DNA of 64,000 nt from positions 8,399 to 72,398 of the forward strand of contig MLAK01000569.1 in the NCBI GenBank assembly GCA_001839685.1, given 5' to 3'. Source of the stretch: Tritrichomonas foetus. Lineage: Eukaryota; Parabasalia; Tritrichomonadida; Tritrichomonadidae. Under the pieces are notes generated by a model. The model was given only the letters and a program-made list of their open reading frames with translations, searched no databases and was not told the origin of the DNA. Positions 822-51,467 of this stretch are shown here, one piece after another; positions within the stretch are counted from its first letter, which is position 1; the number at the start of each line of letters is the position of its first letter. Position numbers and translations under genes: made by a program.

Positions 822-2543
822 ATGCCTGTTGATTTTCTTTCTATTCTCAACGATGAAAATAGTAGAACCAGTGCAACAGGTGAAATAGAATTGATATTTC
901 CAGAGTATTCAATCGACGACGATTTTGAAATCAAAGTTCCATGTAAAATATTCAGCAAATGCCAATCTCTAATTAAATGCGCTCATTTTTCGATAACATC
1001 ACCAGAAGTTTCTATTGATGGCCTTAAGTTTATAACTTCTGTGATGATCAACAATTCCGATAATTTTCAATTACTCAATTCCAAAATCAAGCACGCAAAA
1101 CTTTCAGATGGTGGCTTATACATTGCCAATTCGCATTCTGTTTATCTCAGTCACGTAACAATCTCAAAAACCGAAAATATTCCAGGATTATATATTACCC
1201 AAAATTGCACGATTTCGGCTGACAATTTGCTTATCCATCATTTAGTAGAAACGTTACTTGTTTGTAATACCCATTCTATCCTTTATGTGAAAGATTCTAA
1301 TTTGCATCATACAAGTGCAAATGCTGTTTATGTAAGTGCTGGTTCACACATTGAAATATATAAATGCAAGTTATGGGAAACAGAGTATCCTGCCATTTTC
1401 ATCCAGCAATCCACATGCAGGATCGAAAATAATGAAATTCGATCTGTCAAGCAAAATGGCGTTTCATTAAACACAGTCAAAAAGTTTGTTGTTGCACACA
1501 ATTATATTACAGATGTCAACGGATCAGCAATAGCAGTACTCGATGAATCAAAAGGCTCCACATATCGAAATACAATCACAAAGGTTGGCGGAAATGGAAT
1601 CTACGTATGTGGAAATTCAGAAATTCGCGCTTATAAAAATATAATCACAGATAATCAATTCCCAGGAATTGCAATTCTCATGAAAAGTAATGCTAAATTA
1701 AGTCGAAACAAGATTTCTAAAATTATTTATAGCGGAATTTGTGTTCGTGGTGCAAAGAAAGTTTTAATTCGAAAATGTAATATTGATAATGTACAAGAAT
1801 GCGGAATCTCAATTTCTGATACTGATGATTGTACTGTTCGTAAGAACAAAATTGACAAATGTAAAATTGCTTCAGTTGAAGTGTATAATAGTTCTGATGC
1901 GCTTGTGAAACATAATTACATCACGGAAATTGGAACGGCTGCTTTCCTTGTTTACGCAGGTGGAAGCTTGCGCGCATATAAAAATAAAATTAGACAAGTT
2001 GGTGTTTCTATGGTCAAATTGAGCTATAAAGGTGGTGGAATCTTTCTCGATAATGATATTAAAGATTGCCCCATCCAGAAAAACGGTGATACTGTTTCGT
2101 CTTACTACTTTTCTGGGAATGGCGAATTTCCTTCGGTTACGAATAATCAAACTCTTCTGAAAGAAGGAATGATTTTAGATGAACCTTATGAAGACAAATC
2201 ATCATCAATGTGCATTCGATGTAACGAGCGACCGAGAAATTGTTTTATTCTTGATTGTAGTCATAGAATATTCTGTGAGGAATGCGCAAAGCAAGCTCTT
2301 GATAATAAAGAACTTTGTCCTCTTTGCAGATTCCCAATTGTTAGTACAACTATCGGTTATGAAAGTGGAGATGATGGACTTTGCGTGATTTGCTCAGAAA
2401 ACAAGGCGGATTGCATTATAATGCCATGCGGGCACATGGGATTTTGCCAAGCATGCTTGGGGCAATGGTACCGGAAGAATAAGACATGTCCAACTTGCAG
2501 AGCAGAACCGTCGTTCTATAAGAAAATTATTCAAGATCTATAA
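822..2543 (+). CDS. Right-handed beta-helix protein with two C-terminal RING fingers
   Basis: This 573-residue protein begins at the first ATG of a long open frame. Residues ~60-430 are a chain of ~22-residue degenerate repeats of the type N-x-I/V-x-x-(hydrophobic), with many Asn and Gly turns, as in right-handed parallel beta-helix (PbH1) domains. Two C3HC4-type RING fingers follow, one starting near residue 463 (CIRC...CSHRIFCEEC...CPLC) and one near 521 (CVIC...CGHMGFCQAC...CPTC). All eight metal ligands are visible in both. RINGs recruit ubiquitin E2 enzymes, so I infer an E3 ligase whose beta-helix binds a target; FBXO11 is a distant analogue pairing a beta-helix with ubiquitination. The stop is TAA followed by A. 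The neighbouring gene is convergent. Substrate and location cannot be seen. Confidence 0.85.
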   Translation: MPVDFLSILNDENSRTSATGEIELIFPEYSIDDDFEIKVPCKIFSKCQSLIKCAHFSITSPEVSIDGLKFITSVMINNSDNFQLLNSKIKHAKLSDGGLYIANSHSVYLSHVTISKTENIPGLYITQNCTISADNLLIHHLVETLLVCNTHSILYVKDSNLHHTSANAVYVSAGSHIEIYKCKLWETEYPAIFIQQSTCRIENNEIRSVKQNGVSLNTVKKFVVAHNYITDVNGSAIAVLDESKGSTYRNTITKVGGNGIYVCGNSEIRAYKNIITDNQFPGIAILMKSNAKLSRNKISKIIYSGICVRGAKKVLIRKCNIDNVQECGISISDTDDCTVRKNKIDKCKIASVEVYNSSDALVKHNYITEIGTAAFLVYAGGSLRAYKNKIRQVGVSMVKLSYKGGGIFLDNDIKDCPIQKNGDTVSSYYFSGNGEFPSVTNNQTLLKEGMILDEPYEDKSSSMCIRCNERPRNCFILDCSHRIFCEECAKQALDNKELCPLCRFPIVSTTIGYESGDDGLCVICSENKADCIIMPCGHMGFCQACLGQWYRKNKTCPTCRAEPSFYKKIIQDL

Positions 2544-10397: not shown

Positions 10398-12786
10398 TTA
10401 TTATTTTAAACGTACACTTTAGATTATTTATGAATTTTCATATCACTGACAAAAATATTAACTTGACAAAAATATTTTTCAATTATACGATCAATAGAGA
10501 TAGTGATTCAAAATCATCGATTTTACTCTTTAATAAGAATATAAGGAGTGATTACTTCTTCTTGAAGACATGGAATCTTGGTACAATGGAAATCTCAGAG
10601 CTAGCAGTCACAGCAATCGAATACGATTTTGCCCTTAAAGAAATGTGATATTTAATTTTTCATATTGATCAAATTCGAATATGAAGGAGTATACAAGGAG
10701 TTTTTGGCTAAACACAGTTTTTTTTTTTTTTTTTGAATGGAAACAACGAAAAATGATCTTTCTCATCATAACGAAAGAGCAATCATGAAGGAACAATACA
10801 ATTATGATTTTTTTTTGTAAGATGATTGCTGATATTTATTCGTATTATCTGGGTATCTATATAATATTGAAATTATGGACCAATTGTCAGACTAATTTTA
10901 GGGATAGTATTGCATTTCATGAGTCTAATGGAATAAAGGAATGCCATCAAAAAAAGGAAAATAAAAATTGATATGACTGGTGGTTACCATTGCTTACTTA
11001 AGTAATTGGCTTCCTTAAACTATCTTTATGCAAATAATGATTTTCTTATCAATTTTAAAGCTTATATATGATTTGATAAAGATATTTTAAGTTACAATTA
11101 CTTTTGAAATTCTTCTGATGTAGCTTTTGGTTCAATTCAACGTGAAAAATTAGATAATAGAGAAGTTTACAAATATTTTCAAAACTGATCAGTTTCGCTG
11201 GATCAGTCTTCAAAAAATTTTGTGGAAATTGGAATTGGAGGTTTCTTTTGTTGCCGATTCATAAATAAAATAACATATGCATTCCACACAAATGGTATGC
11301 AAAATCTTATTTTTTGGTAAATTATTGCTATCAATCGTGACAAATGGTGTATCTAGAATTAATAACTGGAAAAAAGATTGATATTCATGATTTGATTCAT
11401 ACTAAATTTCCAAAAAATCAAATGATTTCTACATTGTTGCAAGTGATTTATATTTATCTAAAGATATTTAACATAACTTCTTATTTACAATGAAACATCT
11501 TAGAGTCGAATGAACAACACCGAAAAAAGATGGGAAATGAATAGTGAATCATTAATAGTTAACCATATTGTCCCATTTCATTTTTTCTCATCTGTAATAT
11601 AGAGTTAGATATCATTATATTTTCAGATATGTCATAATTTATCATTATTCACTATACACCTGCCTTACGACCAAAAATGAATTTCTGGCCAGAAATTCAA
11701 ATTCACCTTAATAATTGATCAAGCTTGACGAAAACTTTTCCAAGTTGGGTTACAATGCCGAAGTATATCGATAACCAAATTTTTTATACTCATTCTCTAG
11801 ACAAATTTGTTTTATACTTTTTGCTTTATCAGAATACTTTCGTTGATTAAACGAATGTTAAATTTAATAGTGAATAACCAAAAAGCAATTCACATTTTAT
11901 ATTTTGAGTCAAGATATTTTGTTTTTAATTATCTTTGTTCAATTTCACCATTATCTAAGGTCAAATGACCGGTTTTCCTTTATCTCGCGAAAATCATTCC
12001 CAATGGATTCCTCGCGAAAATCATTTCCCCCCTTCTAATTTTCTTAAAAATATTCATGATTATTTATGATCATTTACATGAATTACATTTTGTATGAAAA
12101 ACCATAAAATCATGTCATCAGCTGATTCATTTGAATGTTTCAATATATAAAATTTTAAACGTTCATAATATCGTAAAAATGTATTCTCAACTTTTTCAAT
12201 ATGATAATCCATTCTAAAATTCGTTTATTTGAATTAAACCGCATTGAACGTCTCGAAATTGGGGAAAAGTTAAAAATTTGGACATGAAAGTAGATCAGAA
12301 ATGATGGCCCAAACTTTCATCGAATTTTTCCTTTTTTCCGAAATATGAGAATATTTTCATTGATACAAATTGTTTTTCAAAATTTCCATCATAGACATCA
12401 CATACTGATCATTGTTAATTAAATTCCCACTTTTTGTAGTCATAAAATGGAATAATTCGGGAATAATCAATAAAGATTCTACAATTTTTTAATAGTTTCT
12501 TAAAAAAAGCATATATAACAATTTATTTCATTATATATTTTATGAAAAAACTGAATAGGTTCAGTTTTTAGTCAGAAAAGAAGTGATTGAAAATGCACGG
12601 TACAAATTTTGTAGATGATCAAATAAGCTAATATTGCGACCGATTATTCCTATTAGTATATACGTGATACTTTATACATTATTTTGCAAAAATCAGCGAA
12701 ATGGATCCGTTAATCGAAATAAAAACGACCGTTTGTTTATTTTTGAGGCATCCGTTTTATATTTAAAAAAATTAAATTTTATTCAG
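10398..12786. other. Long intergenic region, no convincing gene
   Basis: 2.4 kb between divergent genes. The 72-codon + frame at 10430-10648 is not protein-like. A 17-bp near-perfect direct repeat (CTCGCGAAAATCATTCC) occurs at 11984-12000 and 12011-12027. The right end carries two Myb-like promoter motifs described separately. Around 11,100-11,320 a short stop-broken frame (for example IGIGGFFCCRFINKIT) might be a relic of a gene, but it is too short to assign. Confidence 0.4.
12636..12736 (-). promoter_or_regulatory. Two ACGGTCG motifs upstream of CC2D2A gene
   Basis: Positions 12636-12647 read, on the minus strand, ATAATCGGTCGC, one mismatch from the motif upstream of eS6 and the 86-residue gene. 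Positions 12724-12736 read ACAAACGGTCGTT on the minus strand, an exact 13-base match to 18481-18493. The AACGG core fits the general Myb-binding consensus. A role in transcription of the gene starting at 12787 is an inference. Confidence 0.5.
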
Positions 12787-15700
12787 ATGGCACTTCTCGC
12801 TCCCGAAGACAGAGTCGATCCAGAAAACTTACAATTATACTCAGCGAATCTCGAAGCTAACAGCGCCAATTATTTCGAACCAGTTAGTAATCTTGAATTA
12901 GGATATGAAAATGAAACGCAAAATTTTCAAGCCGTCAAAGCGTCAGAACTCAAAGACCACCTTCTTCAGATGATTTCTCAGAAAGAAGGAATTACCGGAA
13001 TTGACGATATTACCTCAATTACGACAACAGGAAACTCAATGCCTGAAATTCAGACCGAAAAAGAAAAAGAAGAATCATTAATTGAGCACGCCCAAGCTTT
13101 CCGCGATAAGCAGGTCAACAATACTGAACTTTTAACAAAAGCCAAATCAAAGGCCGAAAAAGGCACCAAAAAGAAAGACGGCGAAACTTACCAATCGATT
13201 ATGGAGCAGGATGGTCTTTATGTGCCAAAAGCCATAAAAATCACAAATAGGAATATTGAAAGAATTACAAACCGTCTTCAATGGAGTGAAGTTGACAGAG
13301 AAAGATTTTTTGATAATGAAGGACATCTCAAAAATGATGCTCCAGCTTTAAGAAAGATTCCCCCTCCATTTAAACAAGATCCAATTTATCCTCCTTATTA
13401 TAATTCAGGGAAATCCCAGCTTCTTCCAGCAACTGTTTGGGGACTTGAGAATTCTGCAACAGCCCGTGACATTCGTGTAGAAGTCAATTCAATCCAATTT
13501 ACTGTTCATCATCTTTCCAGCGATGAAGACGTTCTTGCAATTCGCATGAAACAACTTTATGTGTCATACCTTCATGCTGTTCAGTATCCTCGTTCAAACT
13601 ACTTTGCATCACGAATTAAAGCCTTGAGAAGGGATTTGAAAATTCATCCAGAAAATCGATTGAAAATCCTCGAGGAAATCATTGATTGTCACAAAATGAA
13701 AGACACTGAAGAATTAAGCACAAGAATGAAATTGGAGCAACTTCTTGTAACATGGCATGAACTCAAAGATGTTCGAACAAAGAATGGCTTCAACACAACA
13801 ACACCAGCACTTCGATGGCAATCGAAGAAATTTTCTGAAGAGCAAGCTGCAGAAGAACAGGCCAAATTCGACAAAGCTGCTTTAAAGCGCGCTAAAGAAG
13901 TTGTTGAACTTGCAGCTCTTCGAAACGAAGAAGAAAATGCTGATATTGAACAAACTGTTGAAGAAATTAAACAAAACCATAAAGATATGGGCTTAAGAAT
14001 GCCAGGCGATCCAATTTGGCGACCAGTCATTTATGATATTGAATTATCTCCAGATGATAAACTTTCAGCTGAAGAACACGCACGCCAACATAAAATCGAG
14101 CGAGCAAGAATTTATGTTGCTTTTATGATGGGAACAACTGAAATGAGAAGTAATGATACACTTTTGAATAAACAATTCCTTTCACCAATTGATACAGGTT
14201 GTAAAGCATCAACAATGCGTGTTCCAAATGACGTAAGAATTCATATTTATGAATATGGAGACCAGCATTTGGGCGAAATTGCAACAGTTCCAATTCCAGT
14301 CTTAAACGGTGTTCCTAAAGAGTTTATTAGTTATGAATTCGCTGCTGAATCAAAGACAAAGAGTGGTCTTATTGTTCAAGGATACGTCACTGCACGTGTT
14401 TTCATTGAACCAGACACTGTTGCAACACAAACTGTCCTTCCACAAGTTCGAAGCGTTGCGCCAACTCGTGTCCAAGTTTCAAACAGGTTCATTTCAGTTC
14501 CGAAGTATCTTGAAATTATCGCAAAGCATGATCCTAACGATCCATACATTGCAGCAGCAGTTGGTTCAGTTATGGCTGAAAGTAATGAGCAAACAATCTA
14601 TAATAGATTCGCAATTGATGTTGCAAAAGATTCAACAAAATTCGAATCAATGGCACCTTCAAACTTATGCGAAGTTATTCATAAGAAAGCTTACGATAAA
14701 CTTTATGGAGATAGTGGAAAAGCACCAATCACAGAAGAACCGAAATTACAACTTGCCGACGTTGTAAGAGAAGCACCAACACCAACATTTTCCAATTTCT
14801 TCTCAGCTCTTTGGAAATTCATGACATTCAGAAGAGGAAAAGACAAAGTTCTTGACAGGAGTGCACCAGCACATCGTCTTGAAAGCTATTCCAAAGTCAT
14901 TTTGTGTATTACTGGATTTTCAAACCTTCCACAAGAAGTTACAACTGCAAATGCAAGAATCAAATTTGATGGCGAAGAAGTTGAAACAAAGATGTGGGAT
15001 GTTCGATCACAACAATTTCTTGGAGCTCATAACGACTTTGAACAAAAAGGATGCTGCTCAAGAAAGAAGGTTGATGAAAAGCAACCAATTATTGGAATGT
15101 CATTTACATTCACAATTGCAAAAGGCGATTCTGTTCCACACTTTTCACAAATCGAAGACAAAACAGTCAGAATTGATGTCTTCGATTCTGTTGAAGAAAG
15201 ATTCCTCGCTGCAATCGAAGTTCCACTTCGCTCCGTCTTCGTAAATGGAAAGATTGAAGGAGAATACTCATTATTCTGTGCACCATTCAATCTTGGATAC
15301 ACAAGTGCAGAACAACCAATGCGTATCAAGATGAGTTTGGAACTTACTCCACAACTTCTTCCACCAAACTTTGTCGATCAAAACGCATGCAGTGAAAAAC
15401 CACAAATTTCAAAACGTGCTCAAAAGATCACTGAACACTTCCAAGGAAGCAGAAGAAGAATTGTTCCACTTGCTACAACAATATCAAACAGCACAGTTCT
15501 TGCTTGCAGATTTATTACACCACAAAATCCACCAGAAGGACTACATGAAATTCCAGAACTTCTTAGTTTCGTATCAATACTTCCAACAACCAAGGATTCA
15601 GCAATGCCTGGTGCTGAAAATCAAAAATGGTCCACATCGCAACAATTCCTTAATGATGCAAGAGGAACAAACACAGAACATGCAATTCTTCTTTGTAACT

Positions 15701-16461
15701 TCCTTAAACACCTTGAACAAGATGCTTATGTTATTCTTGGACATGATGCAATTACTGGCTTATGTGCATTCGTTGGAATTAGACAAGGACCCAATAAGAT
15801 GCAAATTCTCGATCCATGTGCTGGAAGAGAAGTTGAAGAAAAGTCATTCTCGACATTACTCGACATTGGAACAGTATTCAACGATAGAAATATTTGGTTC
15901 AATCAACAAAAGATCGGAAAGGTTGAAGGAATTAATTGGAACCTCAACGATAGTGGAAAATGGCTTGCATTCTTCTGTAGAGACTTCCCAAGATGCGAAC
16001 TTACATCACCACAAGAAAGCCAACTCGAATTCGAAGAATCTCCAATTGAACACCTTGAGGCACTTCAAAGACACGTTGAAAGTGTTTTAATGACAACAAC
16101 AGAAAACCTCAGAGGTGAAAGAGCAACAAATTGGGATGATGAATATTCCGAGAAGCTTTCTAGAGTCTTATCTACAGCATCTAAAGGAAATGCAGATAAA
16201 TTAAGAAAGAGACTGTCCGAAGTCACAAAAGGAAAAGGAAAAACTAAGCTCATTGGATCACCATTCTTCATCGCTTACGTTTATGATGAAGATAACATTG
16301 AGAAATTGAGGACAGAAATTGCAGAAGAACTTAAATCTCGCCAAGAGTTCGACTGCAACAAGCGTGGAGTGAAATTCGCATCCGCTGTCCATGTAATTTC
16401 TTATCCAAATGATGTTTATGGAATCTGGTTCCTCCTTGCTGCGATTGTCCCGTCCAAGTGA
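12787..16461 (+). CDS. CC2D2A: CC2D2A-like ciliary transition-zone protein
   Basis: The protein has 1224 residues if read from the first true ATG (MALLAPEDRV); the open frame upstream has no ATG. Residues ~200-300 include the DPIYPPYYNSGKSQLLP segment, and later parts carry charged helices, a C2-like beta region (~640-850) and a C-terminal transglutaminase-like peptidase fold. The last gives the best match to metazoan CC2D2A: a run with TEHAILLCNFL, LDPCAG, DRNIWFN and a WLAFFCRDFP block. CC2D2A is part of the MKS module that anchors the ciliary transition zone to the membrane. In the transglutaminase-like fold the position usually held by the catalytic Cys appears to be Thr/Glu, so it is probably non-enzymatic, as in animals. 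The organism's flagella make this role plausible. Confidence 0.85.
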   Translation: MALLAPEDRVDPENLQLYSANLEANSANYFEPVSNLELGYENETQNFQAVKASELKDHLLQMISQKEGITGIDDITSITTTGNSMPEIQTEKEKEESLIEHAQAFRDKQVNNTELLTKAKSKAEKGTKKKDGETYQSIMEQDGLYVPKAIKITNRNIERITNRLQWSEVDRERFFDNEGHLKNDAPALRKIPPPFKQDPIYPPYYNSGKSQLLPATVWGLENSATARDIRVEVNSIQFTVHHLSSDEDVLAIRMKQLYVSYLHAVQYPRSNYFASRIKALRRDLKIHPENRLKILEEIIDCHKMKDTEELSTRMKLEQLLVTWHELKDVRTKNGFNTTTPALRWQSKKFSEEQAAEEQAKFDKAALKRAKEVVELAALRNEEENADIEQTVEEIKQNHKDMGLRMPGDPIWRPVIYDIELSPDDKLSAEEHARQHKIERARIYVAFMMGTTEMRSNDTLLNKQFLSPIDTGCKASTMRVPNDVRIHIYEYGDQHLGEIATVPIPVLNGVPKEFISYEFAAESKTKSGLIVQGYVTARVFIEPDTVATQTVLPQVRSVAPTRVQVSNRFISVPKYLEIIAKHDPNDPYIAAAVGSVMAESNEQTIYNRFAIDVAKDSTKFESMAPSNLCEVIHKKAYDKLYGDSGKAPITEEPKLQLADVVREAPTPTFSNFFSALWKFMTFRRGKDKVLDRSAPAHRLESYSKVILCITGFSNLPQEVTTANARIKFDGEEVETKMWDVRSQQFLGAHNDFEQKGCCSRKKVDEKQPIIGMSFTFTIAKGDSVPHFSQIEDKTVRIDVFDSVEERFLAAIEVPLRSVFVNGKIEGEYSLFCAPFNLGYTSAEQPMRIKMSLELTPQLLPPNFVDQNACSEKPQISKRAQKITEHFQGSRRRIVPLATTISNSTVLACRFITPQNPPEGLHEIPELLSFVSILPTTKDSAMPGAENQKWSTSQQFLNDARGTNTEHAILLCNFLKHLEQDAYVILGHDAITGLCAFVGIRQGPNKMQILDPCAGREVEEKSFSTLLDIGTVFNDRNIWFNQQKIGKVEGINWNLNDSGKWLAFFCRDFPRCELTSPQESQLEFEESPIEHLEALQRHVESVLMTTTENLRGERATNWDDEYSEKLSRVLSTASKGNADKLRKRLSEVTKGKGKTKLIGSPFFIAYVYDEDNIEKLRTEIAEELKSRQEFDCNKRGVKFASAVHVISYPNDVYGIWFLLAAIVPSK

Positions 16462-22833: not shown

Positions 22834-25800
22834 TTAGTCGTTTTCATCATCACTTTCATTTGAATGCTTCTTCTTCTTCTTTGGTTCACCATCCTTTGTT
22901 GAATGTTTCTTCTTCTTATGATGATGTTCTCCATCTTTTTTGCTTTTACTTTTCTTGCTTGTGCTTGCTTCATCTTTATCATCATCTTCATCTTCAGCTG
23001 CAGCGGCTCTTTTTGCTTTTCTTTCTTCTCTTCTTCTTCTTTTTTCTTCTTTATCTTCAGGGTCGTCTTTCTTTTCCGATCGTCTCTTCTTTCTTTCTTC
23101 TTTGGCTTCATCGTCTTTCTTTTCATCATCGTTTTCTTCCTTCTTCTTTCTTCTCTTTCTTCTTTCTTCCTTTTTCTCATCATCACCATTAGTTTCTTTC
23201 GTCTTCTTTCTGTCTTCTTTCTTTTCAGATGTTTCGTCTTCAAGTTTGCTTTCTCTGTGTTTCTTTCTTTCTTCCTTCTTTGAAGATTCTTCATCTTTCG
23301 ATTCACTACTCTTTCTTTCTTCTTTGTTTCCTTCTTCAACACTATCTTCTTTGCTTTCTCTTCTCTTTCTCTTCTTATCTTTGGATTCTTCATCTTTGGA
23401 TTCATTGGTAACTGGTGGTAATTTAACGTGTGGTGGTTTTTCTTCTTTCTTTGGTTCTTCCTTCTTTGGCTCTTCCTTCTTTGGCTCTTCTTTCTTTGGT
23501 TCTTCCTTCTTTGGTTCTTCCTTCTTTGGTTCTTCCTTCTTCGGTTCTTCCTTCTTTGGTTCTTCCTTCTTCGGTTCTTCCTTCTTTGGTTCTGCTTTCT
23601 TTGGCTCTTCCTTCTTTGGTTCTGCTTTCTTTGGTTCTTCCTTCTTTGGCTCTTCCTTCTTTGGTTCTGCTTTCTTTGGTTCTGCTTTCTTTGGTTCTTC
23701 CTTCTTTGGCTCTTCCTTCTTTGGTTCTGCTTTCTTTGGTTCTGCTTTCTTTGGTGGTGGAGTTGGTTCTGGTTGTTTTTCATCTTCAGAATCAGAGCTT
23801 GATTCAGAACTGGAGTTGCGGCTGATGATGATTTGTGATGGTGCTGGTTTGCTTTCTTCCTTCTGTTCTTCGGGTTTCTTTTCTTCAACTACAGGTGTGG
23901 CTGTTGTCTTTGATTTTGATTCTGGCTCACGAGCCGGAACTCTTGGTGATTTAGATTCAGATGTCGGTTTTTCTTTTTCTTCTGGTTTGGTTTCTGCTGG
24001 TTTCTCAATCTCAACTGAGTCTGAACTTGTCATTGAACTTGGTTCATCATCTGAGTCAGAATCAGAAGATGAAGAAGACTCTTCAACATACTGTGGTTGA
24101 ATTGCAAATACTTCCATTGGCAAATGTAGTGGAGTTTCTTGTTTATCTTCTCGTTCACCGAGTTTATGTTTAGGTTCTTCACTTGATGATTCTTGTTCGA
24201 TCTCTGGTTCTGGTTCAGGTTCAGGTTCCGCGTCTCTCTCTTTCACATAGGCAGGAATAGATAAATCAATTGGGAATGCGCTGCTTGGATTAAGGGCGTG
24301 AAGTTGAAGACGTATTGAATCAAAGAATTCACGTTCAGCTTTAGATTGCTCAGTTCGCAGTGCTCTTGAAATAACTGTACATAATTCAGGAAGAGTTTCT
24401 TCAATTTTCTGCCAAATTGGAGCAGGTTCAGATCCAAAGGCCTTCTTTGTTGCATTGATATTTAATTCAATGCGCGCTCTTCCTGATTGTGAAACAGAAT
24501 CAATGCATGAAATTGCATGTAAAATGCTACTTGCTATGTTTTGAGTGATAGTTGAACGCAATTGTTCAAAAAGTTGTCCCCAATTGCATTTGCATTCAAT
24601 GCATTTATTAATTATACAAATTACCCAACCATCTGGTCGAACTTGTAAGTCTTCAGCATTCCAATCAATGTTTGTGGAAAACATTCCTTGATGAATTGCC
24701 GTATTAAGTTCTATATTCAAATTTCGAATAAGTTTATTAATTAAAAGCTTACTAAGTTCAAGACCAGTTGATGCCAAATCATTTTTAGCTTCTTCTGTTA
24801 ATTTCTCTTTAACAACTTTGTTATATTTCCTAAAAATAAGTTGAATATTGTTCTGTGAAAGCTGTGTAAGTGAATAAATAGCAGGAACAAGATCAATTTT
24901 ATCATTAATTAATGCGTCTTCATGTAAATTATCAAAATAATCATAAATTGGATCTAGAACAATGGATTTATATGTTGCTGAACTGAAAATATCACTATCA
25001 CTTAGCATTTGCAATAAGAAATTGGTCAAATTAGTTCCAGATTCAGGGGCGTTGAGAATATCATTGCATCTATCCTTCAAAAATTTGATATACCATTCTT
25101 GGAGATCATTCATAATGGATTGAGTCATAACGTTGGCTTTTTGGAAAGGCATTGCATTATCTGCCCATAGCAAATGAACTCGTCTAACTGCATTATGAAG
25201 TTCAGAATTGAAAATTACACCAGGTGGAAGTGGGGTTTCTTTGATTTCATTCAGCATAATTTGAATTTCCTTATTAAAGTCTGTGATTAATTGAATTAAT
25301 AATTCATTAATTTGAGCCTGACTTGCTTCATATTGGTTTTGACCATTTTCATTTTTCTCACGATGAATATTTGTTGGATTAGAATAATACTCTTCGAAGA
25401 AGTCGCATAAAACTTTCCAAAACGGTAAAGACTCTTCAAGTGCTGAACAAGAGTCATTAAATGAATGATCTGCAAGACTCTGGCGTACTTTATTATCAAT
25501 TGAATGAAGCATTTTAATAATCGGGTTATTTTGTTGTGATCGTGTAATATCAAGGAGAAGTCTACAATATGATTTATTGAATGTTTTATAAGTCATTTGA
25601 GAAAGCTTTGTTTGAAGTGAATCTTCAACATTACGAAGCGATTTTTCAACGTTTGCAAGAGCTTCAGCGAAAAGTGGAACATTCTTCAAATAAGGGAATT
25701 GATTAGCTTTTTGCATTACTCTTGCAATTTCATCGAACTGAAGATTAGTTCGAAAATTATCGATTTCTGAAGAAAGCTTGAAGATAAATGAATATGTAGA

Positions 25801-26478
25801 AATACGTGAAAGAAGAGCAGATGCATTTTGTGCTTTAACTGACTGTTCACGAATATCACTGAAAAATTCATTCATCTTTTCAATAATTGAGTTGACATCA
25901 TTCAAAAGATTAGAAACATCCTGCTGACCAGGGAATTGTTTTTCTCTGAATTGTTTTTGTGTATTAAGTAAATCTTCATATGCCTTTACATAGTTGTGTA
26001 AGTTGTCAGCAATCTTTCCTCTGATTACTACTTCTGATTCTCCACCACCTTGAAGGTTATCGATGGCTAGTTGGATTTGATCCAATCCTTCATTTCCGAA
26101 AATGGTTTGAACGTATTCTGTTGCTTTGAATTCGCGCTGTCGGAGAAGTCTCATTGATCGATCTGATAAAAAGGCAGCAGGTGGCCCGTGATCTCTTCTG
26201 CCTGCTGTTGGTAATTTTCCAACTTGGCCTACAGTCTGTGTACCACCGAGTGGAGAGTCTGCAATTTGTTGATTAGCATTTTGTAAGATATCAAGTCCAT
26301 CATTATCGTCTAAATTTTGGATAATACGCGTCGGCTGTCCATACATTTTAATAACTTCATCCCATCTGTTGACAGGAATATCATCCCATTTATTTACTGG
26401 ATCATTTGAATCATAACTAGTATCTAGTGCTGACAAATTCACCGAAAAACGAGCTGATTGTATTCCACGATGCGACAT
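22834..26478 (-). CDS. Sec5-like exocyst subunit with long charged repeat tail
   Basis: The protein has 1214 residues. Residues ~120-330 resemble the conserved N-terminal part of Sec5/EXOC2: FKATEYVQTIFGNEGLDQI, then a helical stretch with VVIRGKIADNLHNYVKAYEDL, and later FDEIARVMQKANQF...VPLFAEALANVEKSL. Helical bundles continue to ~750, as in exocyst rods. The exocyst tethers secretory vesicles to the plasma membrane. The C-terminal ~460 residues are not typical of the family: acidic/Ser-rich segments (SSSSDSDSDDE), then about 20 pentapeptides of KKEEP/KKAEP (nt ~23445-23750), then a Lys/Glu/Arg-rich tail with likely nuclear-localisation-like runs. The tail is probably disordered. The assignment to Sec5 rests on motif likeness, and another CATCHR protein is possible. 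Confidence 0.65.
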   Translation of the reverse strand: MSHRGIQSARFSVNLSALDTSYDSNDPVNKWDDIPVNRWDEVIKMYGQPTRIIQNLDDNDGLDILQNANQQIADSPLGGTQTVGQVGKLPTAGRRDHGPPAAFLSDRSMRLLRQREFKATEYVQTIFGNEGLDQIQLAIDNLQGGGESEVVIRGKIADNLHNYVKAYEDLLNTQKQFREKQFPGQQDVSNLLNDVNSIIEKMNEFFSDIREQSVKAQNASALLSRISTYSFIFKLSSEIDNFRTNLQFDEIARVMQKANQFPYLKNVPLFAEALANVEKSLRNVEDSLQTKLSQMTYKTFNKSYCRLLLDITRSQQNNPIIKMLHSIDNKVRQSLADHSFNDSCSALEESLPFWKVLCDFFEEYYSNPTNIHREKNENGQNQYEASQAQINELLIQLITDFNKEIQIMLNEIKETPLPPGVIFNSELHNAVRRVHLLWADNAMPFQKANVMTQSIMNDLQEWYIKFLKDRCNDILNAPESGTNLTNFLLQMLSDSDIFSSATYKSIVLDPIYDYFDNLHEDALINDKIDLVPAIYSLTQLSQNNIQLIFRKYNKVVKEKLTEEAKNDLASTGLELSKLLINKLIRNLNIELNTAIHQGMFSTNIDWNAEDLQVRPDGWVICIINKCIECKCNWGQLFEQLRSTITQNIASSILHAISCIDSVSQSGRARIELNINATKKAFGSEPAPIWQKIEETLPELCTVISRALRTEQSKAEREFFDSIRLQLHALNPSSAFPIDLSIPAYVKERDAEPEPEPEPEIEQESSSEEPKHKLGEREDKQETPLHLPMEVFAIQPQYVEESSSSSDSDSDDEPSSMTSSDSVEIEKPAETKPEEKEKPTSESKSPRVPAREPESKSKTTATPVVEEKKPEEQKEESKPAPSQIIISRNSSSESSSDSEDEKQPEPTPPPKKAEPKKAEPKKEEPKKEEPKKAEPKKAEPKKEEPKKEEPKKAEPKKEEPKKAEPKKEEPKKEEPKKEEPKKEEPKKEEPKKEEPKKEEPKKEEPKKEEPKKEEKPPHVKLPPVTNESKDEESKDKKRKRRESKEDSVEEGNKEERKSSESKDEESSKKEERKKHRESKLEDETSEKKEDRKKTKETNGDDEKKEERRKRRKKKEENDDEKKDDEAKEERKKRRSEKKDDPEDKEEKRRRREERKAKRAAAAEDEDDDKDEASTSKKSKSKKDGEHHHKKKKHSTKDGEPKKKKKHSNESDDEND
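23445..23750 (-). repeat. 15-bp coding tandem repeat (KKEEP/KKAEP)
   Basis: About 20 copies of a 15-bp unit inside the Sec5-like gene encode KKEEP or KKAEP. The order of A and E variants suggests duplication of pairs at the 5' side and recent amplification of pure KKEEP at the 3' side. Long open frames in the other five frames here are artefacts of the repeat. Confidence 0.9.
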
Positions 26479-26750: not shown

Positions 26751-28145
26751 ATGGACCCAAACACAATCAAATCTGTCTACTTTATAGGAATCGGCGGCAT
26801 AGGGATGTCAGCCATTGCTCGATACTTTTTGAACTGCAAAAAAATTGTTGGCGGTTTCGACAAACTTGAAACCGAAATCACAAAATCGTTAATTCAAGAA
26901 GGTGCTCATATTCATTACGACGATAATGTAGATTCAATACCAGACGTTTTCAAAAACAAAGAGAACACGCTTATCATCTACACGCCAGCAATTCCATCAA
27001 CGCACAGCGAATTCACATATTTCAATAATAATGGATTTGAAATTCAAAAGCGAGCCCAAGTTTTAGGAACCATTACACGTAACTCAAAAGGTATATGTGT
27101 TGCCGGCACACATGGAAAGACAACAACATCAACTTTAACTGCTCATCTTTTTGATCAATCTCATCTCGGCTGCAATGCCTTCGTTGGAGGCATCTCAAAG
27201 AACTTCAACACCAATTTCTTAGTTAATGGAAAAAGTGAATTCACTGTAATTGAAGCAGATGAATATGATCGTTCATTTCACACACTTTCACCTTTGATGA
27301 CGGTTATAACAGCTGTTGATGCTGATCATCTTGATATCTATCATGATTTGCCAACATATATTGAAAGCTTTGAACACTATACTTCGTTGATTGTTGACAA
27401 TGGTGTAATGATAATTCATACCGATTTAAATCATGTCAAACCAAGATGCAAGCCATCAGTAAAAGTATTCACATACAGTACTGACAAAGGAGATTTCCAT
27501 GCAGAAAACATAAGGAAAGATGATAAAGGAGACACTTTTATTGATTGGGTTGGAACAATAGATGGTCAGGAATATCGAATTAAAGATATCAAATTGGGTA
27601 TTTCTGTACCAATTTTAATTGAAAACTCTGTAGCAGCTATTGCACTTGCCCATTTGAATGGTGTCACTGATGATGAAATAAGAGCTGGGATGCTCTCTTT
27701 CAAAGGTGTCCAAAGGAGGTTTGATTTCCAATTAGTAAATGATAAATATGTATTTTTAAATGATTATGGACATCATCCAGTTGAAGTAAGAGAATGCATT
27801 AAATCTATTCGCGAAATGTACAAAGGAAAGAAAATCACAGTTGCATTCCAACCCCACTTGTTCTCGCGAACAAAAGATAGCTACATGGAATTTGCTGAGT
27901 ATTTGGCTTTGGCTGATGAAATTATTTTATTGGATATTTTCCCAGCACGCGAACAGCCAATGGAAGGAGTCACTTCACATCTAATTTTTGACAATATTGA
28001 TCAAAAAGTTCCCAAAATGATGTGTAAGAAAGATGAACTTGTTGACATTCTTCGTAACAAAGAAATAGAAGTCCTCATTTGTCTTGGTGCTGGCGATATT
28101 GACACACTTGCTCCATCAATCGTTGAAATGCTTAATCAAAAATAA
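26751..28145 (+). CDS. murC: UDP-N-acetylmuramate--L-alanine ligase, bacterial type
   Basis: MurC joins L-alanine to UDP-MurNAc with ATP in bacterial peptidoglycan synthesis. This 464-residue protein is full length for the family. The first true ATG is at 26751; the frame upstream has only a TTG. Visible motifs are the nucleotide-sugar Rossmann motif GIGGIGMSA (13-21), the ATP P-loop GTHGKTT (119-125), EADEYDRSF (168-176), DADHLDIY (190-197) and, toward the C-terminus, the YGHHPVE block plus LLDIFPAREQP. All catalytic blocks look intact. The overall pattern resembles Bacteroidales MurC more than other clades, from memory of the family. Flanks are plainly eukaryotic (Sec5-like, CK2 beta) and the base composition is host-like, so it reads as an ancient, ameliorated transfer. 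No other Mur gene is in the window. The stop is TAA followed by AAA. Confidence 0.95.
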   Translation: MDPNTIKSVYFIGIGGIGMSAIARYFLNCKKIVGGFDKLETEITKSLIQEGAHIHYDDNVDSIPDVFKNKENTLIIYTPAIPSTHSEFTYFNNNGFEIQKRAQVLGTITRNSKGICVAGTHGKTTTSTLTAHLFDQSHLGCNAFVGGISKNFNTNFLVNGKSEFTVIEADEYDRSFHTLSPLMTVITAVDADHLDIYHDLPTYIESFEHYTSLIVDNGVMIIHTDLNHVKPRCKPSVKVFTYSTDKGDFHAENIRKDDKGDTFIDWVGTIDGQEYRIKDIKLGISVPILIENSVAAIALAHLNGVTDDEIRAGMLSFKGVQRRFDFQLVNDKYVFLNDYGHHPVEVRECIKSIREMYKGKKITVAFQPHLFSRTKDSYMEFAEYLALADEIILLDIFPAREQPMEGVTSHLIFDNIDQKVPKMMCKKDELVDILRNKEIEVLICLGAGDIDTLAPSIVEMLNQK

Positions 28146-28715: not shown

Positions 28716-29288
28716 ATGACTCAAACATGGGTTCAGTGGTTTTTGTCTACACCTCGTGGCAAATATTTTGCACAGATCGACGATGAATATCTTCATAGTA
28801 TTTATAATTATTACGGCCTCAGACAAAAAGTTCCGAATTTTAAATACGCTTTGGATTTGATACAAGGACCTTATATTCCTCCAGAAAATCGACCACCACT
28901 ATGGCCAGAAGACATCGATGATTACGGACTCTGCTTATATGGACTACTTCATGCGAGATATTTATTAACAGCCGAAGGACAAAAAAGAATGTTTGAGAAA
29001 TTCCGAAATAAAGAATTCCCTCATTGTCCCCGAGTTTTTTGCGATGGAATTACAGGACTTCCTTACGGAACGAGTGATGATATTGGCCAATCAGATATCA
29101 AAATTTTTTGTCCAAATTGCAACGATATATATTCATCGAAGGACGAGTCTTACTCAATGATGGACGGAGCTTTCTTTGGACCAAATTGGGTTCATCTTTT
29201 CCTACAGAAATACCCAGATATTATTCCCAAAGATTATCCAAAGAAATATATACCCAGGATTTTCGGAATGAAAATTGCTCCTGCGTAA
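28716..29288 (+). CDS. CSNK2B: Casein kinase 2 regulatory (beta) subunit
   Basis: This 190-residue protein is full length for CK2 beta. It dimerises through a zinc finger and activates and targets the CK2 catalytic subunit. The four zinc Cys are at residues 104, 109, 132 and 135 (CPRVFC ... CPNC), with exactly the family's spacing. Other conserved blocks are LYGLLHARYLLTAEG (~74-88) and GPNWVHLFLQKYP (~155-167). Two features of animal CK2 beta are missing: the N-terminal SSEE autophosphorylation site, and the acidic loop, which here is replaced by a Pro-rich segment (IQGPYIPPENRPPLWP, ~49-64). The acidic loop inhibits basal activity and binds polyamines in animals, so regulation probably differs. 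Confidence 0.95.
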   Translation: MTQTWVQWFLSTPRGKYFAQIDDEYLHSIYNYYGLRQKVPNFKYALDLIQGPYIPPENRPPLWPEDIDDYGLCLYGLLHARYLLTAEGQKRMFEKFRNKEFPHCPRVFCDGITGLPYGTSDDIGQSDIKIFCPNCNDIYSSKDESYSMMDGAFFGPNWVHLFLQKYPDIIPKDYPKKYIPRIFGMKIAPA

Positions 29289-29625: not shown

Positions 29626-32082
29626 TTACATAATATCGGGATCGACCCTCCTCTTTTGAAGATTGATAGCAATAGATGTAATATTATCCATACTATTTGA
29701 TCCAAATGCTGTGTTTCTAATGGTGTAAGCAAACTCATCTGGATCATCAATTTTCGCACCAAGCTGTGCTATATATTCATTAGAAAGTACATCAAAAACA
29801 CCATCACATCCAACAAACAGCCACTTTTCATCATCATGTAAGAAATATGTTGCAATATCTGGATCTGCAGAAAGTGACTCTGCAATTCTTAAATCACCAA
29901 GCGAACGAGCAACAGCTAAAATACTGTTTACACGTCCATTTGTAACACGTCCATTCGATGCATGAATTCTTTCGAATTCACTACGAGATGATGGTTTATG
30001 ATCAGGAGTAGAAAATCGTAGATTTCCTTTGTCGTCTGTAATCAAGACACGTGCATCACCGACGTGTGCAATAATGACTTTATTTCCTTCAATGATTGCG
30101 AATGCCATTGTTGATCCATCATTGTATTTTTTGGCTTCAAGTAATGTTTGAAGCTTCCTAGTTTGTGTTCGAACATGTGGTTCGGTCATTACAAAATCTG
30201 TATCATTAACAAACTTTTTAACCATTAAAGTGCAATACAGTGAAGTATTTGCACCGCCATGTCCATCAAAGACTCCATAAACAGAGTGTCCATGTACTGT
30301 TTTACATTGAATAATAATTGAATCTTCTTGTGTCTCTCTCACACCTCTCATTTCGGCAACTGCTGATGAATTACCAAAATCTAAACGTTTTCCACGTGCA
30401 TATTTGGTTTCATCACTAGTATAAAGAACTTCTCGAATATTTTGTGAAGACTGTGCAATAGCTTTTGTATGGCAAATATCAAGTTGTTGAAGTGCTGGTA
30501 ACTCTTTATCAAAAACTGTGTTTGTTGGATTCTCTGCAACTTTAAAATAAGCTAAATTAGGAAGACTGAATTTAGGAACATCAACAATTTGGTTATGGCA
30601 AATATCGAAATCATATAATTTCGGATAAGATAAAGCAGGCATTGTTGTTAATTTATTATATGAAACATCAATCGAGTAGATTTCATCATTAAGGACAGGA
30701 AATTCAACAAGTTCATTTTGTGATACATATAAGTTTGTAACATTCGGTAGTGGTGGCAATTTTTGAATTTTATTCAAATTTACATCCAATAAAGTAATTC
30801 CTGAATTAGCGATATAATCTGGAATCACTTCAATTTGGTTTCCAGCGAGATGAAGTTCCTTTAAATTCTCAGGAAGTTGTGGAATTTCTTTAATTTGATT
30901 GAATGAAAGATTCAATTTTTTCAGTTTTTTGGCGTTGATGATTTCTTTTGGAATTTCACGAATTTGGTTATGCATTAAATATAACTTTTCAAGACATGGA
31001 AGATCAAAAACTTCTGGTGGAATAACTTCAATGAGGTTATCAACAAGTTCAATTAACACAACTTTTGGACTAACATAATCAAGAACAATTTTTTCAATTT
31101 TATTATGATTCATGTTATAAAATATCACTTGATTTTTCACAATTTGAGGCATAATTTTAAGGTAGTTATTATCAAGGCAGCATTCAGAAAGAAACGGTGT
31201 ATCAGAAGCGGAAAAATTAAGAAGCTTGTTTGAACTTCCATACAACTTTCTGATGACTTTTGGAACCATTGGAACAAAATCGATCTGATTGTTTGAGAAA
31301 TTAAAGAATTTTAAGTTTTCTAATAATGGGAGGTGATGTGGAATACCTTTGATGTTATTGCTCTTAATGCTTAATGTTTCAATAGTAACTGGAACTATAG
31401 GAAATTCAGTCAAAAAGTTATCTGAAACATCAAGGAGTCTCAATTTCGGCGTTGTAACCTCGAAATTTGGAAGTTCTAATAATCTGTTCATTTTCAGGTC
31501 AAGCAGTTCTAAATTTGGAAAGTTGAATGAAGGCGCAATCTTTTCAAGTCCAACACAAACCAATGAAAGTGTTGTCAATGAAACCATTTTGAAATCTAAA
31601 ACCGTCAAATAATTCCAATCAAAATAAAGCTTTTGGAGCTCTTTAGCATCAAGGCAAGGCAATGTATGTAAGTTGTTGTGTGTCACGTTTATAGTTTTGA
31701 TGTGTTTGTTTGTATAATTGAACGTCGATAATTTATTGGCGAATAAGTTTAAAGCTGTTATTTGGGTAATTCCGCCAAATCCTGTTGCTATTGATTCGAT
31801 TTTATTTTCGGATAGATCAAGCGTGGTTAGTTTTGGATAGCCTTTCAATTTTTTGACCATATCTGGAGATATCTCTTTAATAGAGTTATACGTCAGCGCT
31901 AAAGACGTTAAGTGAGGCATACTTTTGGGAAGGATTGGCTCAGAAATGCCCACGTGCTCGAGTTGGACAACTTTCAGCTTATTTGGCGGCAATTTATCTG
32001 GGATTCCTTTGATGGTCTTACCACTTACGATGAATTCTGTTGATGTTGGAGTAATTGCAGGAAGAGATGTATTTCCTCCCAT
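29626..32082 (-). CDS. Leucine-rich repeat - PP2C protein phosphatase
   Basis: The protein has 818 residues. Residues ~30-560 are more than 20 leucine-rich repeats of ~22-23 residues (LxxLxLxxNxI/L type). Residues ~570-815 are a PP2C-type Ser/Thr phosphatase with the metal-binding and catalytic motifs in order: RETQED, VFDGHGG, HVGDAR, DHKPS, ARSLGD, VGCDGVFD and DNIT. Every acidic residue expected for the Mn/Mg site is present, so it should be active. The N-terminus MGGNTS fits an N-myristoylation signal (Gly2, Ser6), which would place it at a membrane. The LRR-PP2C order recalls PHLPP phosphatases and the adenylate-cyclase-associated LRR-PP2C of fungi, without the PH or cyclase domains. Confidence 0.93.
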   Translation of the reverse strand: MGGNTSLPAITPTSTEFIVSGKTIKGIPDKLPPNKLKVVQLEHVGISEPILPKSMPHLTSLALTYNSIKEISPDMVKKLKGYPKLTTLDLSENKIESIATGFGGITQITALNLFANKLSTFNYTNKHIKTINVTHNNLHTLPCLDAKELQKLYFDWNYLTVLDFKMVSLTTLSLVCVGLEKIAPSFNFPNLELLDLKMNRLLELPNFEVTTPKLRLLDVSDNFLTEFPIVPVTIETLSIKSNNIKGIPHHLPLLENLKFFNFSNNQIDFVPMVPKVIRKLYGSSNKLLNFSASDTPFLSECCLDNNYLKIMPQIVKNQVIFYNMNHNKIEKIVLDYVSPKVVLIELVDNLIEVIPPEVFDLPCLEKLYLMHNQIREIPKEIINAKKLKKLNLSFNQIKEIPQLPENLKELHLAGNQIEVIPDYIANSGITLLDVNLNKIQKLPPLPNVTNLYVSQNELVEFPVLNDEIYSIDVSYNKLTTMPALSYPKLYDFDICHNQIVDVPKFSLPNLAYFKVAENPTNTVFDKELPALQQLDICHTKAIAQSSQNIREVLYTSDETKYARGKRLDFGNSSAVAEMRGVRETQEDSIIIQCKTVHGHSVYGVFDGHGGANTSLYCTLMVKKFVNDTDFVMTEPHVRTQTRKLQTLLEAKKYNDGSTMAFAIIEGNKVIIAHVGDARVLITDDKGNLRFSTPDHKPSSRSEFERIHASNGRVTNGRVNSILAVARSLGDLRIAESLSADPDIATYFLHDDEKWLFVGCDGVFDVLSNEYIAQLGAKIDDPDEFAYTIRNTAFGSNSMDNITSIAINLQKRRVDPDIM

Positions 32083-50166: not shown

Positions 50167-50183
50167 AATCAGTAGTTATATTA

Positions 50184-50440
50184 AGTAGTGGAATTGGGTA
50201 CCCACCCAAAAAATGAGAAATTTCGCGTCTCACCTATCGTTCGCTGCGAAATCTGCCAAAAAATTTTGACTAGTACCATTTCGCACTCCTTAATGCATGA
50301 ATGAACTCATTAACGTCCTCATCAATGACAAATCAATGACAAATCAATGACAACATCCCTTTTATCATTAATAACAAATCCATCCCCCGCCTACCCATTT
50401 GTGTTTTCCAATCGCCTGACAAAAATAAAGTTAGTTTTAA
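50184..50440 (+). repeat. Left terminal inverted repeat
   Basis: 257 bases beginning AGTAGTGGAATTGGGTACCC. It contains three direct copies of ATCAATGACAA (~50321-50352). Its complement is the right repeat. Confidence 0.9.
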
Positions 50441-50471
50441 TAATAATTTTTTATTTTTTTCTGTATATAAA

Positions 50472-51164
50472 ATGGTATCCCAAAACACTCCCTTATTAAA
50501 GCTGAAAAAGGCAGATTTTTTAGAGCTCGATGGCTTCGATACACTTTCTCATTTAAGCCAAAAAGATCAAAAAGAAACTTTAACAGATGTAATAATTGAT
50601 TATAACCTTTCAACAAGAGCAACAATTGATGATTATAAACGAGCATACAATGAATCTAAACGTAGGATCCAAAAACAAATAGATGATCAATTATTTAAAT
50701 CACTTAAGAAACAAAAGACTGAAACAAAAAAACGACAACGTAAACAAAACATAAAAGAAACAGCATTAGAAATGCGAAATATGATGAACATACAATACGA
50801 AGGAGTTGAGAAGACACCAACGAGAAAAGAATATGAAAGAAGGATTGAAGAAGTAGATGATCACCAAACATTTAAGAAAGACTTACAGGAATATATTGAA
50901 CTTATGAAACAAACCATTATTTTTAAAGTAGATGTCGGAGATGATGAAGATAAGAGGTTAGCCTTGTGTGAATCAATTCGTATTTGAATTCGTGAAAGAA
51001 TAAATACTAATTTAAATCGTTTGAAAAGAGCATCACCCTTAAATGGAAATCAAAAATGGTTTACAACCTTTGAAAATCAAAATATTGAAAACTCAATAGG
51101 TCATATAGCATGTTACATTTCTTTTGAAGCAAATTGTTTAGATATGAATCCAAAATATAAATAA
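50472..51164 (+). pseudogene. Internal ORF of inverted-repeat element, one in-frame stop
   Basis: The frame opens at ATG 50472 (MVSQNTPLLKLKKADFLELD) and runs 171 codons to TGA at 50985-50987. It then continues in the same frame without a break to TAA at 51162-51164, 230 codons in all. The protein is helical and very Lys/Gln/Glu-rich (LKKQKTETKKRQRKQN), ending with a less charged part (QKWFTTFENQNIENSIGHIA). No transposase, integrase or capsid motif is visible. One point mutation to TGA seems to have split it. It fills most of the space between the inverted repeats, so it belongs to the element. Confidence 0.6.
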
Positions 51165-51205
51165 TGCTGTTAAACAAATTATTAAAAACAATTATTGATA
51201 ACATT

Positions 51206-51462
51206 TTAAAACTAACTTTATTTTTGTCAGGCGATTGGAAAACACAAATGGGTAGGCGGGGGATGGATTTGTTATTAATGATAAAAGGGATGTTGTCATT
51301 GATTTGTCATTGATTTGTCATTGATGAGGACGTTAATGAGTTCATTCATGCATTAAGGAGTGCGAAATGGTACTAGTCAAAATTTTTTGGCAGATTTCGC
51401 AGCGAACGATAGGTGAGACGCGAAATTTCTCATTTTTTGGGTGGGTACCCAATTCCACTACT
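51206..51462 (-). repeat. Right terminal inverted repeat
   Basis: Reverse complement of 50184-50440, with no mismatch that I noticed along most of its length. It ends CCACTACT immediately before GAATC. Confidence 0.9.
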
Positions 51463-51467
51463 GAATC

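Follow-up and report, generated by a model that had tools for sequence, protein, structure and literature searches.

A MurC-family ligase gene of Bacteroidales descent, apparently without its pathway, in a parabasalid genome assembly

Why should the genome of a parabasalid protist hold an intact bacterial gene for a peptidoglycan ligase, and what could its product do there? The question is raised by a 64,000-nucleotide stretch of Tritrichomonas foetus DNA (assembly GCA_001839685.1, contig MLAK01000569.1, positions 8,399 to 72,398 of the forward strand), which we call the window. At 26751-28145 on its plus strand lies an open reading frame (ORF) with an ATG start and a TAA stop, and its product of 464 amino acids (P0001) belongs to the family of MurC, the ligase that joins L-alanine to uridine diphosphate-N-acetylmuramic acid (UDP-MurNAc). 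Phylogenetic trees support the suggestion of an initial annotation that the gene was laterally acquired from a Bacteroidales donor of gut type, and they place it beside Bacteroides-like MurCs. We give about an even chance to the proposal that this is an old acquisition, retained as a stand-alone cytosolic ATP-dependent ligase that would act on bacterial UDP-MurNAc or a derivative with L-alanine as partner.

All three Mur ligase Pfam domains score above cut-off in P0001, which corresponds to the three-domain Mur ligase fold. With the TIGR01082 (murC) profile the protein scores 340.3 bits, above the curated equivalog cut-off of 335.1 and equal to the score of two bacterial MurCs, and the match covers profile positions 2-447 of 449. 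The gene is thus as intact and full-length as first proposed. Mpl, also a Mur ligase on UDP-MurNAc, was rejected as an identity because P0001 lies far below the TIGR01081 cut-off (98.7 against 388.7 bits). In alignments, the UDP-binding glycine-rich loop occupies residues 9-19 (26775-26807, plus strand), the P-loop GTHGKTT residues 119-125 (27105-27125, plus strand; K123 corresponds to E. coli K130) and the DYGHHP motif residues 338-343 (27762-27779, plus strand; D338 corresponds to E. coli D351). P0001 begins at the bacterial MurC start residue, with no N-terminal extension or leader.

The origin of the gene was addressed with two MurC trees. The first contained 56 rows, made up of 30 of 120 listed homologues and 26 genome loci; near-copies (at least 88% identical) and rows longer than 500 amino acids were left out. 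The second contained 74 rows: 43 of the 56, after 13 long-branch or redundant loci had been dropped, and 31 new loci, of which 30 were the best of 393 sampled Bacteroidales genomes and one repeated locus L016. P0001 is nested in Bacteroidales in both trees and groups with two metagenomic proteins, P0002 and P0003 (support 100/99 and 100/100). In the 74-row tree these three and the Bacteroides-like MurCs form a clade of 35 rows (100/99) within Bacteroidales. Rather than falling among the sampled Bacteroides-like rows, which have a group of their own (93/86), the three lie next to them. Of the 393 genomes, the best has a MurC 59% identical to P0001 and, besides P0002 and P0003, no homologue among the 120 listed exceeds about 62%. 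No relative was found in a scan of viral contigs.

P0002 and P0003 come from short assembled contigs for which no organism is recorded. They are 68-69% identical to P0001 in the multiple alignment and 63-64% by BLASTP, which includes their insertions, and both score below the TIGR01082 cut-off of 335.1 (316.2 and 317.7 bits). Three of their insertion sites are empty in all of 177 other rows; a fourth insertion, the largest, has a parallel in locus L024. The ratio of FYMINK to GARP residues is 1.79 and 1.65 in the two proteins and 1.29-1.38 in three bacterial rows, a composition consistent with AT-rich protist relatives without demonstrating it. As to the proposed search for orthologues in other parabasalids, a clade with these two proteins was found, and no parabasalid name appeared among the 120 MurC rows listed, most of them nameless, in either single-sequence or profile searches (best 7,999 candidates scored each time). 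Named parabasalids do occur in the database searched, as seen with the beta subunit of casein kinase II (CK2 beta). Going by the lack of such a name among the listed MurC rows, probably only one part of the parabasalids has the gene, which was either gained late or lost from the others.

Does the gene belong to the protist chromosome? Upstream and divergent lies a gene for a Sec5-like exocyst subunit of 1214 amino acids (22834-26478, minus strand; PF15469, 4e-15), and downstream one for CK2 beta of 190 amino acids (28716-29288, plus strand; PF01214, 9.4e-58), the two neighbors that had been named at the outset. Not one N occurs between the outer ends of these two genes, so MurC is joined to both, and the sole N run of the window is far from MurC. 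The MurC gene has a GC content of 0.360 and a third-position GC content (GC3) of 0.292, which is within the range of 16 other measured window ORFs (0.18-0.42), and the host-like base composition noted earlier is upheld. Its codon usage correlates with that of its neighbors at 0.81 (range for the 16 other ORFs, 0.28-0.95). Against five Bacteroidota MurCs, hand-picked from the 26 loci, the values are -0.50, -0.42, -0.28, 0.48 and 0.13. No sign of a mobile element was seen around MurC, where nearby repeats are short and imperfect, and P0001 itself was the sole match to its own protein found in the 63.7-Mb assembly.

Pfam scanning covered 17 of the 28 listed window ORFs of at least 150 amino acids. 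Farther out in the window it identified ribosomal protein eS6, a leucine-rich repeat-PP2C protein, GH31, RCC1 and a TRF4-like protein; two scanned ORFs (528 and 171 amino acids) had no Pfam match. Elsewhere on the 103-kb contig three more stretches were taken, of which two were readable and the third was N throughout. The two readable stretches contain eight ORFs of at least 200 amino acids. Among the five scanned, one matched RCC1, one SacI and one ubiquitin (below cut-off), and two had no Pfam match. An assembly chimera or bacterial contamination, which could appeal to the bacterial descent of MurC, is strongly disfavored, and we rejected it. The join is gapless and unbroken, GC3 and codons are host-like, protist genes occur across the window and in the two other stretches, and the assembly has no match to MurA, MurB or Ddl (see below). 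The distance of P0001 from its homologues in the listed rows and sampled genomes likewise speaks against a contaminant.

Two markers bear on the host lineage. The window eS6 has its best match in 5xyi (328.1 bits; next best, 234.7), which we take to be the small ribosomal subunit of Trichomonas vaginalis. CK2 beta is 52% identical at best to that of T. foetus (beta prime), 46% to that of T. musculus and 45% to those of T. vaginalis and Histomonas. Its nearest rows, 81, 78 and 76% identical, cluster with it (SH-aLRT 98) in a tree of 66 rows, namely the query and 65 of 72 matches chosen by length; paralogues may be among them, since T. foetus has two. The earlier label "trichomonad" is therefore sound as far as parabasalid, but loose beyond that, given CK2 beta identities of this size, by which the host stands well apart from all four of these sequenced species.

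Whether the rest of the wall pathway accompanies MurC was examined by six-frame scans of the assembly, which may be incomplete; split genes are read exon by exon in such scans and may be missed. No match was found in the 63.7 Mb for EPSP_synthase/MurA, for MurB_C or for Ddl (Dala_Dala_lig_C), which were positive in 14, 10 and 14 of 14 control genomes, respectively. The cell thus seems unable to make UDP-MurNAc. Nor was there a match for NLPC_P60, GH25 or Amidase_2 (control positive in 9, 3 and 6 of 14). The link with acquired NlpC/P60 hydrolases that had been suggested is not supported in this assembly. Passages of PMC6299479 likewise give no NlpC/P60 matches in Tritrichomonas foetus and place the gain of these genes in the T. 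vaginalis ancestor after its split from T. foetus. The scan for Glyco_hydro_19 (GH19) had no match in the assembly or in any control genome. Since this control was silent and GH19 is reported from both Histomonas and T. foetus (excerpt of PMC12612818), a muramidase may still be present here. For MurQ there were two matches only, of 27.8 and 23 bits against a cut-off of 302, in frames of 728 and 720 amino acids, and MurQ was rejected; we take both to be GlmS-type sugar isomerase domains. With MurA, MurB, Ddl, GH25 and Amidase_2 unmatched and MurQ this far below its cut-off, the suggested recycling route is not borne out.

Mur_ligase_M matched at three places in the assembly, MurC and two FolC genes, and none was MurD, MurE or MurF. 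MurC is thus the lone pathway member found. The two FolC genes are of folylpolyglutamate synthase type (L002, 1348-2610, and L003, 1357-2583; TIGR01499, 278 and 234 bits).

Host-encoded Mur enzymes serve symbionts in some insects and in chromatophore-bearing protists, and many parabasalids house Bacteroidales symbionts. By analogy, the host might supply P0001 to an endosymbiotic bacterium whose own murC is gone, and a donor within Bacteroidales would agree with this. However, P0001 has no targeting extension, the assembly has no match to MurA, MurB, Ddl or another wall-pathway Mur ligase, and the donor is of Bacteroides-like type. Because no leader and no other wall-pathway Mur gene were found, we consider such a service unlikely.

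How well is the protein conserved? P0001 keeps 65 of 67 columns that are invariant in 53 bacterial MurCs, P0002 66 and P0003 all 67. The two departures in P0001 are Tyr397 to Phe, also found in P0002, and Asn289 to Leu, found only in P0001. The latter residue lies at the position of E. coli MurC Asn293, which is Asn in all 177 other MurCs compared (151 homologues and 26 genome loci) and also in P0002 and P0003. In 1997 Bouhss et al. reportedly listed seven invariants of the Mur superfamily (E. coli K130, E174, H199, N293, N296, R327 and D351), Asn293 among them. Six of the seven are present in P0001, the exception being N293, which is L289; for this reason we file P0001 as a MurC-family protein by sequence and not as a proven functional MurC. 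Codon 289 (27615-27617, plus strand) is TTA; neither Asn codon matches it at any of the three positions, which makes a sequencing error unlikely. No account of the effect of changing Asn293 was found in the open-text literature.

The P-loop residues G-T-H-G-K-T occur in all 177 other MurCs, and the final T in 175. Excerpts of PMC3060825 give Asn205, His323 and Asn327 as the adenine-binding residues of Mpl. By the HN..N spacing, Asn327 would correspond to the retained Asn292 of P0001, and the lost residue would then adjoin, not belong to, the listed adenine contacts. The same excerpts name an alanine pocket of Tyr346, His348, His376, Arg377 and Arg380 in H. influenzae numbering. Matched by motif, four of the five are present in P0001 (Y339, H341, H369 and R373), two of them, Y339 and H341, within DYGHHP. 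The position of Arg377 is Leu in P0001 and in all 177 other rows, i.e. of donor type. The claim that ATP-binding and catalytic motifs are preserved does not hold in full: the P-loop, DYGHHP and six of seven invariants are kept, but the Asn293 position is changed.

The loss of one invariant catalytic-site residue from a lone pathway member could also mark a non-functional passenger, either a recent transfer or a decaying gene without a role. The 65 conserved invariant columns, the TIGR01082 score equal to that of two bacterial MurCs, the host-like codon usage and the grouping with two relatives that are 68% identical all argue the other way, and we regard a passenger as quite improbable.

What, then, might the protein do? 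A bacterial murC would have entered the parabasalid nuclear genome from a Bacteroides-like gut bacterium, probably via phagotrophy, and strong selection would have kept it there as a gene on its own. Passages of PMC3060825 describe how ATP serves to form an acyl phosphate at the UDP-MurNAc carboxylate, which the amino group of the partner then attacks. By this family chemistry, P0001 would use ATP to phosphorylate the carboxylate of a UDP-sugar acid, to which an amino acid would then be joined. The likeliest substrate would be bacterial UDP-MurNAc, or a derivative, freed from digested bacteria, and the likeliest partner L-alanine. Rather than building a wall, ligation would cap the nucleotide sugar or trap it. 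As P0001 has no leader, a cytosolic location is likely, and the substrate from eaten bacteria would need to reach the cytosol.

Several points weigh against this UDP-MurNAc reading. A cytosolic enzyme would require its substrate to cross the phagosome membrane. The assembly gave neither an enzyme for making or recycling UDP-MurNAc nor a peptidoglycan hydrolase of the three control-backed families. With Leu at the otherwise universal Asn293 position, normal MurC activity is not assured. The reading also presumes that the gene is expressed and benefits the cell.

A second possibility, which we hold more tentatively, is that the ligase has been repurposed to another carboxylate or nucleotide of ordinary protist metabolism and no longer uses UDP-MurNAc. 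P0001 would then be a cell-wall ligase domesticated by a eukaryote, working on its own to join amino acids with a changed use of nucleotide or substrate, and the change of Asn293 to Leu might, again tentatively, be part of that shift. The loss of this Asn while nearly all other invariants remain lends a little to the "new substrate" idea of the initial annotation, and no MurA or MurB was found that would make UDP-MurNAc. At 25 positions P0001, P0002 and P0003 share a residue that is rare (at most 5%) in 27 Bacteroides-like rows, among them a Gly in place of Ala340 within the amino-acid pocket, and nine of the 25 are absent from all 26 genome loci as well. The insertions of P0002 and P0003 at three otherwise empty sites point in the same direction. 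However, the other 16 shared residues are present in some loci of other Bacteroidota or the outgroup. Gly340 is also the E. coli MurC residue, the pocket is otherwise of donor type, and P0002 and P0003 have Asn293, so this change is not common to the clade. Of the single readings we rank action on bacterial UDP-MurNAc first, put a change of substrate or nucleotide somewhat behind it, and consider service to an endosymbiont less likely still.

Compared with bacterial MurC (TIGR01082; 1p3d, 2f00), P0001 differs by its Leu at E. coli Asn293, and its gene lies in a protist genome outside any mur operon or pathway. Insects that carry bacterial symbionts have host-encoded Mur genes, as do plastid-bearing algae and plants. 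Those are also nuclear Mur ligases in eukaryotes, but they come as several pathway genes together with a walled symbiont or plastid, whereas here there is a single gene. The acquired hydrolases of Trichomonas (NlpC/P60, GH19, GH25 and NagZ-like GH3, in passages of PMC6299479 and PMC12612818) are likewise bacterial wall genes in a parabasalid. They degrade the polymer, however, whereas MurC is a biosynthetic ligase, and the NlpC/P60 and GH25 part of that toolkit has no match in this assembly. Excerpts of PMC12612818 also report the use of GlcNAc (N-acetylglucosamine) by T. gallinae, and passages of PMC4967989 report wall-degrading enzymes acquired by Trepomonas. Transfers of metabolic genes from Bacteroidetes to mucosal protists, as described in parts of PMC4053834, share donor group and habitat with MurC. 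The main text of that paper has no occurrence of murC, peptidoglycan, murein or acetylmuram, and the word MurC is absent from the main texts of PMC12612818, PMC4967989 and PMC6299479. The passages of PMC12483993 (Mixotricha) at hand contain no acetylmuram term, and no report of a parabasalid Mur ligase was found in the open-license literature, supplements excepted.

What is unusual here is not the transfer, which is of an ordinary kind, but the orphan biosynthetic ligase. Neither wall building nor known degradation readily explains why one biosynthetic Mur ligase should be kept without its pathway. If the substrate is bacterial UDP-MurNAc, P0001 would represent an unknown step in protist handling of bacterial nucleotide sugars. 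If the substrate is new, it would represent a eukaryotic use of the Mur fold outside any wall. Either reading is directly testable with one purified protein.

Some other features of the window were recorded. The C-terminal tail of the Sec5-like protein is long and charged and includes KKEEP/KKAEP repeats encoded by about 21 tandem 15-bp units (23440-23755); the region shows strong AT skew. No Rfam or tRNA match was found in the window. A CEP76-like protein with a CC2D2A-type C2 domain is encoded at 12634-16461 (plus strand), where the listed frame opens at TTG and the start is uncertain. A right-handed beta-helix domain is fused to RING fingers at 822-2543 (plus strand), and leucine-rich repeats are fused to a PP2C phosphatase at 29626-32082 (minus strand). 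At 50180-51466, a 1.3-kb unit has perfect 261-bp terminal inverted repeats around the 171-amino-acid ORF without a Pfam match and is a candidate DNA element. Each of its terminal repeats holds three copies of an 11-bp repeat.
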